A DNA stretch of 49,867 bases from contig DASSCU010000060.1 of the NCBI GenBank assembly GCA_035697485.1, forward strand, positions 1 to 49,867, read 5' to 3'. Under the pieces are notes generated by a model. It was not told the DNA's origin and searched no databases. It saw only the letters and a program-made list of their open reading frames with translations. Position 1 is the first letter of the stretch; each line of letters starts with the position of its first letter. The position numbers were made by a program, and so were the translations under genes. Source of the DNA: Actinomycetota bacterium (lineage in GTDB: Bacteria; Actinomycetota; UBA4738; HRBIN12). Of this stretch, positions 17,027 through 26,846 are shown piece by piece.

Positions 17027-17839
17027 TCAACGCGCCGCGACGGAGGCCGCACACGCGGTGCCGACTCGTCGGAATCCGACCCTCGTGTACACCCGGGCCA
17101 CATCGTCGTCGTCGGCCGACAGGAACACGGTGCCGACTCCCCGCTCGAGGGCGTCGGCGACCAGCGCGCAGGTCACGGCGGCCCCGAGGCCGCGCCGTCG
17201 GAACGTCGGGAGGGTCGCGACCCCCACGATCTCGCTCGCACCGTCGAGCGGTTGGTGCCATCCCACGGCGGCGACGACGCCCGTCACCCGTGCCGCCGCA
17301 GCGACGGTGAGGCCGGCGAGCATCCGGCCCCGCTGGAACGCGATCGTGTCCGGGTTCTGCGCGGCGGCCGCGGCGGCCGCATCGGCAGGGCCCAGCGAGC
17401 CGGTGGCGGTGCCGGGCGCGGCGAAGGCCACCTCGGCGACGGCGCTGAGCGCGGCGAGGTCGTCGTCGGCGTCGACGATCCCCACCTCGACGCCGTCGGG
17501 CACGTGTTGGGTTCGGGCGTGGTCGTCCAGCACCATCAACGGGTGGTCGACGATCCGCATGCTCTCGGCCGCGACGGCAGCCCCCACGTCGGGTGCGAGC
17601 TCGCCGATCCACTCGAAGGCCTCGGGCTGCGACAACGCGCGCTGACGGCCTCGCACGGCGCGGACCGCCTCGGCCGTGAACCCCGTCGCGCCGGGTGAGG
17701 GTCTGGCGTAGTAGCGCCATCCGTGGCCCTCGTTCAGGAACAGCGTGAACGGGCCGATCGCCTCGGCGCGGGCGCCGGTCCTGGGCGCCGCATCGAGGTA
17801 GGCGTCGATCCGCCTCAGCAGGTCGAGGTCCGCGGGCAT
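17027..17839 (-). CDS. GNAT family N-acetyltransferase
   Basis: 270 residues. The C-terminal third is a GNAT core: EIVGVATLPTFRRRGLGAAV contains the acetyl-CoA pyrophosphate-binding motif RRRGLG, followed by TVFLSADDDDVARVYTRVGF (motif B, Tyr before RVGF). The N-terminal ~170 residues are a degenerate second GNAT-like half, as in many actinobacterial two-domain acetyltransferases. The start MPADLDLLRRIDAYLD is ten bases after a TAGGCT box with no ribosome binding site. Substrate unknown. Confidence 0.85.
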   Translation of the reverse strand: MPADLDLLRRIDAYLDAAPRTGARAEAIGPFTLFLNEGHGWRYYARPSPGATGFTAEAVRAVRGRQRALSQPEAFEWIGELAPDVGAAVAAESMRIVDHPLMVLDDHARTQHVPDGVEVGIVDADDDLAALSAVAEVAFAAPGTATGSLGPADAAAAAAAQNPDTIAFQRGRMLAGLTVAAAARVTGVVAAVGWHQPLDGASEIVGVATLPTFRRRGLGAAVTCALVADALERGVGTVFLSADDDDVARVYTRVGFRRVGTACAASVAAR

Positions 17840-18102: not shown

Positions 18103-19758
18103 ATGACCCGATACCTGTGCGCGCACCCCGGCCACGAGCGGAAAGGGCGGGCCCGTGCGGTCGATGTGACCGCGCAGGTTCGTCTCGAGCGCGAGTTCTT
18201 GCCCCGAGAGTCCGCCTACCTCGCGTCGACCGACGACGTGATCGCCAGGGTTGCGGCGCTGCGCACCGGTGACCCGGTCGACCGCCTCGCGCAGGTTCGC
18301 CGCGTGCTGACGGGCACCACGGCCCCGATCGACGCGCCGGTCGTGCTCGCCGCGAGCGCGACCAACCGCGTTCCCGGGTTGTACGAGCTCGACGAGCTGC
18401 GGCGCAGCGACCCCGCGATCGAGCGTCTGATCGATCGGCGGTTCCAGGCCACGCCCGGCGCCGACGACGTCGTGGTGCTGAGCGACGCGGAGCCCACGCC
18501 GACGACAGGAGTGGCATCACCGACGACGGAGACGCTGACCGCCACGCAGCTCGAGCAGGTGCAGCGGGCGCGAGTGCTGCCACAAGGGCTGTTCCCGGTG
18601 ATGGAGCTCTCGGCGCGCATCGCCGACGCGCAGCCCACCGACGAGGCGATCGTCGAGGCGATCAAGGCCACCCCGACGGCGGGGGCGCCGCTCGACGAGC
18701 GGACCGGTCCGTGGCGCGTGGTGATCGAGTGCCCGAGTCCGGTCGGAGCCCCGCCCGTGAACCATCGCGTGATCTTCACCGGCACCGGCGACCACGAGCC
18801 CGCCGAGGTGCTCGGCACCCCCGCGGTCGGGTGGGACGTCGCGATCGAGGACGCCGCGAGCGTCGACCTCGCTCCTCCCACGCCGAGCCGGCGAGCGGAA
18901 CGGCGCCTGAAGGCGGTGCTGATCGCCGAGCTCGTCGTCGCCGCGCTCGTGGCGGGGTTCGCCTGGGCCTCGGGCGCGCTCGCGCACGCGGTGCGGGAGA
19001 CGCCCGGATGGCTCGGCTTCGCGGCGACGATCGGAGTCGCGGCCGTCGCGATCGGCCTGATCGGCCTGCTCGGCCGCAGCGACGCCGATGGCAACGCGAA
19101 CGACACGTTCGTGCTGCGTCGCCACTACGCCAGCCGCACCCAGATGCTCGCCACCTCGACGATGCTCTCGGCGGGCATCTTCGCTCTTGCGCTGGCGTCG
19201 GCGATCGTGCCGCCGGTTCTCGACGCGGAGCCGCCCGTGCCCGCTCCGGCCATCACGTTCGCGGCCGGCAACCGGGTGGTCACCGCGACGGTGCAGGTCG
19301 ACGGGCGCGATCTCGCGACCGACGACATCGTGACCGTGGAGATGCGCCAGTACTCGGCCGAGGAAGCCGAGGGCGTCCTGATCGGACGGGTCACCGCGAC
19401 CGGCGACTCCGCCGGCCGTGTGCTGGTGAGCGAGGCGATGGCGCTGGACCGTGAGGCGCGCTACATGAGCGTGCTCGTCACGATCGGCGACCGGTCGGCC
19501 GAGACGTGTACGCCTGCGGGCGCGAGCGGTACCGGGTGCACGGTCGTGTCGGTGCCCCCCTTGGGAGCGGGCATCATCCGGTTCGTGCCCACCGAGTCCC
19601 TCGATGCGCTACTCGAGGAGACCGTCCCGACGGCGAGCCCGACCTTGTCGCCGTCGATCGCTCCCACCGCGGCTCCGTCGCTCACGCCGAGCGCGGTCAC
19701 GCCGAGCGCGGTCACGTCGATCTCCCCCCAAGCCTCGGTCTCGGTGTCGCCGGCCTAG
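18103..19758 (+). CDS. Unrecognised 551-residue protein with three membrane helices
   Basis: No family recognised. The N-terminal ~265 residues are soluble and acidic, rich in short helices (DVIARVAALRTGDPVDRLAQ; QLEQVQRARVLPQGLFPVME). Three membrane helices follow at about 269-295, 303-324 and 349-371. Next comes a ~130-residue beta-rich part (TFAAGNRVVTATVQVDGRDL) with two Cys, and a Ser/Thr/Pro-rich tail made of near-repeats TASPTLSPS and SLTPSAVTPSAV. A GAAGGAGAGG site precedes the ATG. With three helices the N-terminal part and the tail lie on opposite sides, so a cytoplasmic sensor with an outer beta domain is possible. Confidence 0.7.
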   Translation: MTRYLCAHPGHERKGRARAVDVTAQVRLEREFLPRESAYLASTDDVIARVAALRTGDPVDRLAQVRRVLTGTTAPIDAPVVLAASATNRVPGLYELDELRRSDPAIERLIDRRFQATPGADDVVVLSDAEPTPTTGVASPTTETLTATQLEQVQRARVLPQGLFPVMELSARIADAQPTDEAIVEAIKATPTAGAPLDERTGPWRVVIECPSPVGAPPVNHRVIFTGTGDHEPAEVLGTPAVGWDVAIEDAASVDLAPPTPSRRAERRLKAVLIAELVVAALVAGFAWASGALAHAVRETPGWLGFAATIGVAAVAIGLIGLLGRSDADGNANDTFVLRRHYASRTQMLATSTMLSAGIFALALASAIVPPVLDAEPPVPAPAITFAAGNRVVTATVQVDGRDLATDDIVTVEMRQYSAEEAEGVLIGRVTATGDSAGRVLVSEAMALDREARYMSVLVTIGDRSAETCTPAGASGTGCTVVSVPPLGAGIIRFVPTESLDALLEETVPTASPTLSPSIAPTAAPSLTPSAVTPSAVTSISPQASVSVSPA

Positions 19759-19908
19759 CGGTCGACCGCGTCGCGCGCGTGGCTCTGTGGTCGGTCGCGT
19801 CCCTCGGCTGGGGGATGCGGCCGCACTACCGTCGTTCGGACCATCGGCCGAGTACATCTCAGCCTTGTTCCCGATGTGGGGGCCCTCGACGGCTGACAGT
19901 GTCGGGGG

Positions 19909-20916
19909 ATGCAGCGGGAGCGGGAGGAGGCGGTCGTCGACGTCGCCCGCGGCGTCGTCTCGATCCCCGACATCGCCACCGCCGGCGAGGTCGTCGACCG
20001 CATCCCCGAGGGCATCGACTGGCGGTTCGAGCCGGACTGGGACGGTCTACGGGTCACCGCTCGGCTCGGACCCGGCGCCGCCCGTCTCGTCTCCGACCGT
20101 CGCCGGGCGTTCGACCGGTACTTCCCCGAGGTCGTGCGTTCGCTGGCGACCCTCGAGGCAGGCGCGGCCATCGTGCGGGGGTCCTTGGTGGTGGTCGGTC
20201 CCGACGGTCTCGACTTCGCGTCGGTGCGCCGCCGGCTGCTCCCGTCGCCGTCCGTGGTGGCGAGCCTCGCCGAGTCGACGCCGGCGACCCTGGTCCTCAC
20301 GGACGTCATGACGCGAAGCTCGACGGATCTCAGGGCCCTGCCGCTGGCCGATCGTCGCCGAGCGCTCGAGGGCCTCGCGGGTGAGCTCGGCCTCCCGCTC
20401 GCACCGACGAACCTGCGGCGCATCGCGCCGGGAGCACCGTTCGTCGTGACGCCGCAGACCCTCGACCGCGCGACCGCGCGCGCGTGGCTCGACGACCGAG
20501 ACGCGACGGGCCGCGACGGTCTGATCGCACGCCACGCCGATGGGATGCGATGGCTGCGGGTGCGGCGCGTCCGGACGGCGGCTTGCGTGGCGACCGGGTA
20601 CCGGCACGCCGGCTCCGGCGTGGGCTCGATCCGCCTGGGGATGTACGACGGGGGACGACTGGTCGACGTGGGACGCACCGTCGCGTTCTCCCGTGCGCCC
20701 GTGCGCCGAGCTGCGGCCAGCGCCCTCGCCCGGGTCTCGCCGGGCGGCGCCGTCATCTCGGTGGGCGCGGACTGGGTCGAGGTGCTGCCCGCGCTAGCCT
20801 GTGAGGTGCGGTACGAGCGATTGCGGGGCAACCGGTTCCGCCACGCCGTCACGTTCGTCCGGTGGCTGCCCGATCGCGACCCGTCCACCTGCACGATCGA
20901 CCAGCTGCGGCACTAG
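19909..20916 (+). CDS. ATP-dependent DNA ligase-like protein lacking the catalytic lysine
   Basis: 335 residues laid out as an adenylation domain plus OB fold of the LigC/LigD type. The motif I region reads WRFEPDWDGLRVTA, but the Lys of ExKxDG, which forms the ligase-AMP bond, is Asp43 here. Motif III, normally DGE, reads RGSLVVVGPDG. Motif IV is GRDGLIARHADG and motif V RWLRVRRVRTAACV. The OB-fold end ADWVEVLPALACEVRYERLR and RHAVTFVRWLPDRDPSTC is intact. The frame is uninterrupted and codon use is normal, so the gene is maintained but cannot act as a normal ligase. No polymerase or Ku gene is adjacent. It may bind nicked DNA without sealing it. Confidence 0.8.
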   Translation: MQREREEAVVDVARGVVSIPDIATAGEVVDRIPEGIDWRFEPDWDGLRVTARLGPGAARLVSDRRRAFDRYFPEVVRSLATLEAGAAIVRGSLVVVGPDGLDFASVRRRLLPSPSVVASLAESTPATLVLTDVMTRSSTDLRALPLADRRRALEGLAGELGLPLAPTNLRRIAPGAPFVVTPQTLDRATARAWLDDRDATGRDGLIARHADGMRWLRVRRVRTAACVATGYRHAGSGVGSIRLGMYDGGRLVDVGRTVAFSRAPVRRAAASALARVSPGGAVISVGADWVEVLPALACEVRYERLRGNRFRHAVTFVRWLPDRDPSTCTIDQLRH

Positions 20917-24775: not shown

Positions 24776-25291
24776 CTACCAGTGTTCGCGGTGCACGACG
24801 TCGTCGAACGCCCGCCGGTTCGGCGACGCGATCGGCGAAAGTGAACGATCGGCCGGCCGCCCGAGGGCGATCAGCCACATGCACTCGCGGTCGTCCGGCA
24901 GGGCGAGCACCTCGCGGGCGAGCGGCTGATCCTCGACGGCCGCGTGGCAGCTGCCGATGCCGAGGTCCGCCGCCGCCAGCATGATGCTCATGCTCGCCTG
25001 CCCCAGGTCGAACTGGATCGTCTCGCGGTCGTCGGGGTCGGTCGTCGCGGGCGCGATGAGGGCGATCGTCGCTGCGGAACCCGCCACGTGCTCGGCGTAA
25101 CGCCAGACCCGCGAGAGTCGTACCAGGTCGTCCGGGCCGGTCACGGCGACGAAGTCCCATGCCTGCTGGTTCATCGACGACGGTGAGCGCCGAGCCGCGT
25201 CGAGGATGCGATCGAGGTCGTCGGGCTCGATGGGGTCGCCCGTGAACGCACGGACGTTCCGCCGCGAGCGGATCGCGTCCCAGGTCTCCAT
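24776..25291 (-). CDS. Nitroreductase family protein
   Basis: 171 residues. METWDAIRSRRNVRAFTGDP has the S/T-R-R-S/N-x-R FMN-phosphate-binding start, RRSPSSMNQQAWDFVAVTGP the second FMN contact, and LAAADLGIGSCHAA the third. These are the marks of FMN-dependent NAD(P)H nitroreductases. It is at the short end of the family, lacking extra C-terminal helices. The start lies four bases after the stop of the EEP-family gene on the same strand, so the two are likely co-transcribed, although the functions are not obviously linked. Substrate unknown. Confidence 0.9.
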   Translation of the reverse strand: METWDAIRSRRNVRAFTGDPIEPDDLDRILDAARRSPSSMNQQAWDFVAVTGPDDLVRLSRVWRYAEHVAGSAATIALIAPATTDPDDRETIQFDLGQASMSIMLAAADLGIGSCHAAVEDQPLAREVLALPDDRECMWLIALGRPADRSLSPIASPNRRAFDDVVHREHW

Positions 25292-25295
25292 CTGG

Positions 25296-26846
25296 CTAGG
25301 GTGCCACGATGCGGAAGACCTCGCTCGTCGCCACGCACACGTAGTCGTCGTCGACGCAGAGCGAGACCGCGTAGCGGCCCGGCCGCAGCGGCCATACACC
25401 CTCGGACCCCCGCGTGAAGCGAGCCGTCCCGTTCACCTCGCCGTCGATGTACCGCCACTGGCGGAGCGGACAGTCGCTCGCGTCGAAACAGTTGCGGGTG
25501 AGGGCGAGCCAGTCATAGCGGTTGCCGGGACCGCCGGTCCACTCGACACGGATCGGATCGCCCTGCTCGTAGCGACGGTCCGTCGTGGCCACGGTCGCCC
25601 GCGCGTTCCGTTCGAGGAGCGAGACCTCCGAGGTGGCCACGATGCCACCGTCGAGTAAGGCGACGATATAGTCGCCGGGATCGAGCCCGTCGGTGTCGAG
25701 CGATGCGATGCCGTCGTCGGCCGCGTCGTCGATCGCCACGTCGGTGACGACGGGGTCGGTCTCGGGGTCGTCACCGCGCGGCCAGAGGCCGATCGTCCGG
25801 CCCGGCGACGCGGGGTGGTGGAACGCCGCCCGCACGGCGTGCCCGAGCCACGTGCGCTCGTCGAGCGGGGCGGCGAACGGGTCGGGCTCCACGAGCGTCA
25901 CGTCGACCGTCGAGACGACCGCCCGGTGGTCGGTCGGCCAGGGGCGGCTCCGGATATCGGTGAACGGGCCGCCTTCCCCGACGACCTGGCTGCGCACGAT
26001 GTCGATAGGCCCGGCGGAGTACACGTAGTCGATGCGGTCCCAGGTATCCCAGCGGCCGCAGGCCGGGAAGAACCGCACGCAGTATGTGAAGCCGGGGTCG
26101 GCGACGGGGTCGGGGTGCATCGCCCGGTATGTATCGGTGAAGCCGGCGTCCTCCATCGCGACGGTGACGGGCCACTCCACGACGTAGCGCTCTCCCGGCG
26201 GATCGAGGGTGGGCGGCTGCCATCCGAGTCCGTCGACGGCTTCCTGGGTCCAGTCCAGATGCGATGGGGTGTTGAGGTCGCCGACGAAGAACGTCGGCAC
26301 GCCCTCGGCGATCGGGCCCGCCACCGCGTCGAGGTGCGGCTGCGTCCAGTCGAGCTTGCCCTGCTCGCGGGCGAGCACCTCGGCCTCGTCCTCGCCCTGG
26401 AGCATCGCGTACATGCCACTCGGCCACCACGGTGTGTGGGTCTGGGCGATCGCCGCGACCGCACCGTCGCCGAACAGCAGGTAGGCCCACGCCCCTTCGG
26501 GGATGCGGCCGCCCGGCGACCCGGCGACCCTGCTGCCGTCGGGGTGCACGATCGGGAAGCGGCTCACCAGGTGCATGCGCGGCGACGCGTACCAGCCGAG
26601 CAGCCGGGCGATCTTCCTGGTCTTGCCGAACGCCTCCTGCAGCCCGACCACGTCGGCGTCGGCACGCTCGATCGCCTTCACGACCGCATCGATCGTGGAG
26701 TAGTACGCCCCGTACTGGATGTTGAACGACATGACCCTGATGCGGATCGGCACCGAAGCGCCGGCGGCGGCGGGCATGGTGGTCGTGAGCGGAGTGAGCG
26801 CTGCGGCGCACACGATGACGGCGGTGACGATCGCTGAGCGCTTCAT
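25296..26846 (-). CDS. Secreted endonuclease/exonuclease/phosphatase-family hydrolase
   Basis: 516 residues. A signal peptide (KRSAIVTAVIVCAAALTPLT, cut near AAAGA) precedes an EEP catalytic domain: MSFNIQYG (Asn), VVGLQEAF (metal Glu), FFVGDLNTPSHLDW (Asp/Asn pair) and WPTDHRAVVSTVDV (catalytic Asp-His). Metal-dependent phosphodiesterase activity, on phospholipid or DNA, is likely. About 200 C-terminal residues form two beta-sandwich-like modules (DGLDPGDYIVALLDGG; RPGRYAVSLCVDDDYVCVAT) with paired Cys, perhaps for binding. A TAGCGT box stands six bases before the ATG. It is exported, so it may scavenge phosphate or degrade extracellular DNA. Confidence 0.88.
   Translation of the reverse strand: MKRSAIVTAVIVCAAALTPLTTTMPAAAGASVPIRIRVMSFNIQYGAYYSTIDAVVKAIERADADVVGLQEAFGKTRKIARLLGWYASPRMHLVSRFPIVHPDGSRVAGSPGGRIPEGAWAYLLFGDGAVAAIAQTHTPWWPSGMYAMLQGEDEAEVLAREQGKLDWTQPHLDAVAGPIAEGVPTFFVGDLNTPSHLDWTQEAVDGLGWQPPTLDPPGERYVVEWPVTVAMEDAGFTDTYRAMHPDPVADPGFTYCVRFFPACGRWDTWDRIDYVYSAGPIDIVRSQVVGEGGPFTDIRSRPWPTDHRAVVSTVDVTLVEPDPFAAPLDERTWLGHAVRAAFHHPASPGRTIGLWPRGDDPETDPVVTDVAIDDAADDGIASLDTDGLDPGDYIVALLDGGIVATSEVSLLERNARATVATTDRRYEQGDPIRVEWTGGPGNRYDWLALTRNCFDASDCPLRQWRYIDGEVNGTARFTRGSEGVWPLRPGRYAVSLCVDDDYVCVATSEVFRIVAP

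Follow-up and report, generated by a model that had tools for sequence, protein, structure and literature searches.

A LigC-type DNA ligase paralogue without catalytic residues, maintained in two species of a genus of Actinomycetota

Background

Within the window analysed here (the whole stretch of actinomycetotal DNA, 49,867 nucleotides), one open reading frame codes for a protein which resembles DNA ligases and carries aspartate in place of the lysine that accepts AMP. The question raised by this locus is whether such a protein can still be an enzyme and, if not, what it may be retained for. Pseudoenzymes are familiar among kinases and proteases; a search of the open-access literature retrieved no description of a conserved DNA ligase devoid of catalysis, and novelty is hence provisional. 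Next to offering a natural test of ligase clamp function minus the chemistry, the gene, here referred to as pseudo-ligase, represents an annotation warning, since it clears the Pfam ligase cut-off and is therefore likely to be labelled a DNA ligase by automatic pipelines.

Results

Gene, family and domains

The ORF of the pseudo-ligase (Table 1) is uninterrupted and codes for 335 amino acids; as the preliminary description had stated, the frame is open, with zero stops in either of the two species carrying the gene. The product matches PF01068 (DNA_ligase_A_M) over residues 36–212 with 36.5 bits (cut-off 26.2), and PF04679 (DNA_ligase_A_C) only marginally over residues 235–322 (26.1 bits, cut-off 27.5). 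The top NCBIfam match is the LigC-type ligase model PRK08224 (NF006078; 211.9 bits, E 1.2e-62), the score of which far exceeds that of every LigD model and falls short of the equivalog cut-off of 296 bits that delimits the functional family. Homology to LigC is evident from similarity spanning the nucleotidyltransferase and OB domains and from a position inside the LigC clade of the tree (see below). Archaeal ligases and the mycobacterial LigD ligase domain are the relatives of solved structure identified by sequence. The OB-fold end, previously described as well kept, proved so in part: the motif-VI-like residues E299, R309, R311, H312, R318 and W319 are retained, but in the alignment a loop of about 10–30 residues is shortened and the conserved SRW is missing.

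Table 1 Features of the pseudo-ligase locus (positions in the window)
Feature	Position	Strand	Remarks
Conserved upstream block, 41 bp	19839..19879	+	29 bp before the pseudo-ligase ATG in both species; candidate promoter/operator
Pseudo-ligase gene, LigC-type paralogue without catalytic residues	19909..20916	+	ATG start, 335 aa plus stop
Nucleotidyltransferase (adenylation-type) domain	19987..20604	+	~residues 27–232; PF01068 and model strands/helices
Motif I, EPDWDGLR (context WRFEPDWDGLR)	20029..20052	+	AMP-accepting Lys replaced by D43 at 20035–20037
Motif Ia, Arg replaced by D63	20095..20097	+	Column analysis
Motif III, DGE replaced by R90-G91-S92	20176..20184	+	Orthologue QGS; alignment and column analysis
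Motif IIIa, adenine-stacking Phe replaced by T131	20299..20301	+	Column analysis
Motif IV, Lys replaced by R208	20530..20532	+	Conserved YxxGxR segment right behind it shortened
Motif V, KxK replaced by R217-V-R219	20557..20565	+	K217R, K219R; alignment and column analysis
OB-fold domain	20605..20913	+	~residues 233–335; PF04679 just under cut-off, alignment

Loss of catalytic residues

A structural account of the ligase motifs (PMC6698739) assigns to them the adenylated residue, an acid holding the ribose, an aromatic residue stacking on the adenine, and lysines contacting the adenine or the phosphates. Among 23 intact LigC proteins, 72 alignment columns are conserved at ≥95 %; the pseudo-ligase matches 47 of these and departs at 25, compared to 0–6 departures for each intact LigC in a leave-one-out control. 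Changes are concentrated at near-invariant columns contacting AMP (7 of 10 changed vs 18 of 62 other conserved columns; Fisher p 0.027), the ten being chosen from the above account by alignment, without a structure from the LigC family.

Motif I, which reads EPKWDG in intact relatives, retains E41, D45, G46 and R48. Both motif changes reported in the preliminary description, i.e. Lys to Asp within a clear motif I context and loss of the motif III acid, were recovered in the alignment, VRGSLVV standing in motif III where xDGEIV is expected (D90R, E92S). Losses beyond that description affect motifs Ia (D63), IIIa (T131), IV (R208, followed by a gap of 6–7 residues) and V (R217/R219). Residue D203 at motif IV is acidic and represents no loss, since many intact LigC proteins carry DG(V/I)xAK there. 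Overall, the motif I lysine (D43 in both species), the motif III acid and the lysines of motifs IV and V, all expected of a functional LigC, are missing.

The pseudo-ligase contains no lysine at all, so that no other lysine could accept AMP in place of the one lost from motif I; the orthologue has a single one at position 213 (GKRW), outside motif I, and the intact LigC encoded in the same genome as the pseudo-ligase has ten. Absence of lysine alone is unremarkable, since two further predicted proteins of the window, a GNAT (17030–17839) and a nitroreductase (24779–25399), likewise have none. Proteins of the region are strongly lysine-poor, and the scarcity of lysine in the pseudo-ligase is in part a habit of the genome.

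Orthologue and purifying selection

The sole orthologue found belongs to a second species of the genus (JAOUEA010000019.1, titled Actinomycetota bacterium); it is full-length, 78 % identical and syntenic, with identical gene order in both species. The evidence thus stems from two genomes, that of the orthologue being metagenome-assembled by title and that of the window inferred to be so from its fragmented, incomplete assembly. Both proteins share the replacements D43, D63, S92, T131, R208, R217 and R219, and the orthologue accordingly also lacks the motif I lysine. Between the two genes, substitutions at codon positions 1, 2 and 3 number 51, 43 and 154, respectively, and dN/dS (Nei-Gojobori) is 0.158; the pair of intact LigC genes yields 0.149, LigD 0.205 and three neighbouring genes 0.18–0.24. 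The sense frame is identified as the coding frame by this substitution pattern and by its freedom from stops in both species, all remaining frames being interrupted by stops in one species or both. The low dN/dS, the stop-free frame and the third-position bias together argue for a maintained gene. Identity between the species peaks at residues 27–78, 166–277 and 297–334 and is lowest at residues 1–26 and 111–165.

Pseudoenzyme status is well supported by these comparisons: a ligase homologue lacks the required catalytic residues, and its gene is maintained by selection (dN/dS, synteny). The earlier proposal that selection holds the ligase fold without ligation gains support accordingly; the gene is not decaying, and relatives with intact lysine are paralogues on a separate branch.

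Paralogues and origin

Both genomes also encode an intact LigC-type ligase and LigD. The pseudo-ligase is 39–42 % identical to its intact LigC paralogue in the same genome across ~306–323 residues. In the genome of the window, two Ku genes accompany LigD and LigC; no Ku was found in the second species, the genome of which is only 81 % complete. The Ku genes are diverged (G000:C63:50740-51282 and G000:C24:21933-22604), one lying near LigD, and several relatives likewise have two. Among LigD-type ligases, two from one sister genus (L049 and L053, in G003 and G013) carry DAE rather than DGE in motif III and have an intact catalytic lysine.

The two pseudo-ligases form a pair (support 100/100) in a 42-protein tree, placed within the LigC part and not with LigD; the intact LigC proteins of both genomes form a separate pair (100/100). 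The stem of the pseudo-ligases, 1.84 changes per column long, adjoins the intact LigC of the family with moderate support (94/81); the tips measure 0.09 and 0.22. The tree program flags the composition of the pseudo-ligase as unusual, for which reason its exact neighbour is uncertain. A long stem with short tips is as expected if duplication was followed by a rapid loss of the AMP pocket and then by constraint. A LigC-type ligase gene would have been duplicated before the two species of the genus split; one duplicate would have remained a ligase, and the other would quickly have lost the residues holding ATP and carrying AMP, turned strongly basic and thereafter come under purifying selection.

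Distribution and genomic surroundings

No further copy was found in 27 genomes of the class beyond the two carriers, in GTDB r220 genome contigs, where the same-genus record alone matched, or in IMG/VR. A search of 396 genomes of the phylum with the pattern EP-[codon not starting with A]-WDG-x-R, which is blind to replacements encoded by codons starting with A, returned the two known genes and three chance matches to non-ligases. Two unannotated plasmid matches (Embleya, Streptomyces) were rejected; they read EAKWDGFR with the lysine intact. In three genomes of sister genera, the lactonase locus contains neither a ligase nor a remnant of one.

Upstream of the pseudo-ligase, a gap of 150 bp of otherwise diverged intergenic DNA includes the conserved 41-bp block, which has CATCGG...CCGATG arms, occurs once per genome at ≤3 mismatches and may serve as promoter or operator. 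A simple sigma-70 scan detected no site, and an Rfam search returned nothing credible. The upstream neighbour (18103–19755) codes for a predicted, apparently membrane-associated protein of 551 amino acids without Pfam match, found solely in this genus and in a single further genome from the family (43 % identity, one in-frame stop). The downstream neighbour is a Lactonase-type beta-propeller gene. Given such neighbours, the operon context provides no functional clue.

Predicted structure and charge

The AlphaFold model, built from nine sequences (mean pLDDT 79, pTM 0.69; residues 1–25 and a short loop poor), contains both the nucleotidyltransferase and the OB domain and retains the ligase fold. 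Every one of the 50 PDB matches listed is a DNA ligase or ligase complex. Superposition yields TM-scores (query-normalised) of up to 0.71 with human LIG1 on nicked DNA (rmsd 4.3–5.9) vs TM 0.43–0.46 with free LigD ligase domains, and the model thus adopts a closed arrangement. For a model built without DNA, this arrangement is no more than suggestive of a protein which closes on DNA. Net charge is +12 for the pseudo-ligase (pI 10.9) and +11 for the orthologue (pI 10.8), vs –9 (pI 5.4) and –11 (pI 5.2) for the intact LigC proteins of the two genomes; the Lys to Arg changes in motif V preserve positive charge.

Discussion

Proposed role

The pseudo-ligase is probably a neofunctionalised, non-catalytic DNA-binding protein, which plausibly acts on nicks, gaps or ends but does not seal them. 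DNA binding is plausible in view of the basic charge (pI ~10.9), the conserved fold and the charge-keeping changes in motif V; the nick-binding or regulatory role suggested in the preliminary description would rest on the same features. The nucleotidyltransferase and OB domains would clamp duplex DNA, the most likely ligand, via the ligase surface, which is retained and has become more basic; neither self-adenylation nor AMP transfer nor sealing would take place. Nicks, gaps or ends could thereby be protected or passed on to intact LigC, LigD or Ku; preference for nicks and partnership with these proteins are speculative. Mycobacterial LigC and Prim-PolC act together in base excision repair (PMC5663958), so that a non-sealing paralogue could, speculatively, shield repair intermediates or delay their sealing. 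A bacterial nick sensor or protector derived from a dead ligase, which recognizes ligatable nicks or ends independently of ATP and times sealing by LigC or LigD, is a tentative and rather doubtful extension of this role. The motif Ia arginine, which contacts DNA and ribose, is lost, and nick recognition is therefore possibly altered. The basic shift could instead suit RNA or another polyanion, and the genes flanking the pseudo-ligase are non-repair genes, which counts against the proposed role.

Alternative explanations

Regulation of partners as scaffold or decoy is a frequent fate of pseudoenzymes, and the pseudo-ligase might accordingly bind and regulate LigC, LigD or Ku rather than DNA. 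Potential partners are at hand, since both species encode intact LigC and LigD, and Ku is encoded in the genome of the window; the gene is, however, not linked genetically to any of them, and the strong basic shift favours nucleic acid more, which renders a protein target unlikely. Residual catalysis, be it by unusual nucleotide binding, by an acceptor other than lysine or by performing only the final, non-adenylating step on pre-adenylated DNA, would be compatible with the four motif I residues and the acidic D203 that remain, and so-called pseudoenzymes are sometimes active, as is described for USP53 (PMC12037411). Against this improbable reading stand the excess of changes at AMP-contacting positions, the missing motif III acid and IIIa aromatic, the complete lack of lysine, and the conversion to arginine of the motif V lysines, which are required for steps 2 and 3.

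The numerous catalytic residues lost and the long stem branch would also be expected of a recently inactivated duplicate heading for loss. A pseudogene of this kind is very improbable, however, at a dS of ~0.9 with the frame open in both species, a dN/dS of 0.16, conserved synteny and upstream block, and seven identical replacements in both species. High GC content (GC3 ~0.89) and the presence of long spurious antisense ORFs bring to mind a chance ORF or an assembly or sequencing artefact; this has hardly any likelihood, being contradicted by the independent orthologue in another species, the family E-values and the third-position substitution bias. A non-catalytic DNA-binding protein remains the preferred reading.

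Comparison with known ligases

LigC-type ligases, exemplified by mycobacterial LigC (PMC5663958), represent the best family for the pseudo-ligase and share with it the core of nucleotidyltransferase and OB domains without extra domains. The pseudo-ligase differs from them by the loss of key residues in motifs I, Ia, III, IIIa, IV and V, by the shortened OB loop, by being basic rather than acidic, and by a score below the equivalog level. Fold and domain order are likewise common to the ligase domain of LigD (1vs0, 6nhx; TIGR02779); in contrast to LigD, however, the pseudo-ligase possesses neither polymerase nor phosphoesterase domain, lacks the catalytic residues, is only ~25–29 % identical and groups with LigC in the tree. 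The model resembles the closed form of ATP-dependent ligases bound to DNA, human LIG1 for example (TM 0.6–0.71), whereas the pseudo-ligase is only ~15 % identical to LIG1, has no DNA-binding N-terminal domain and is incapable of lysine adenylation.
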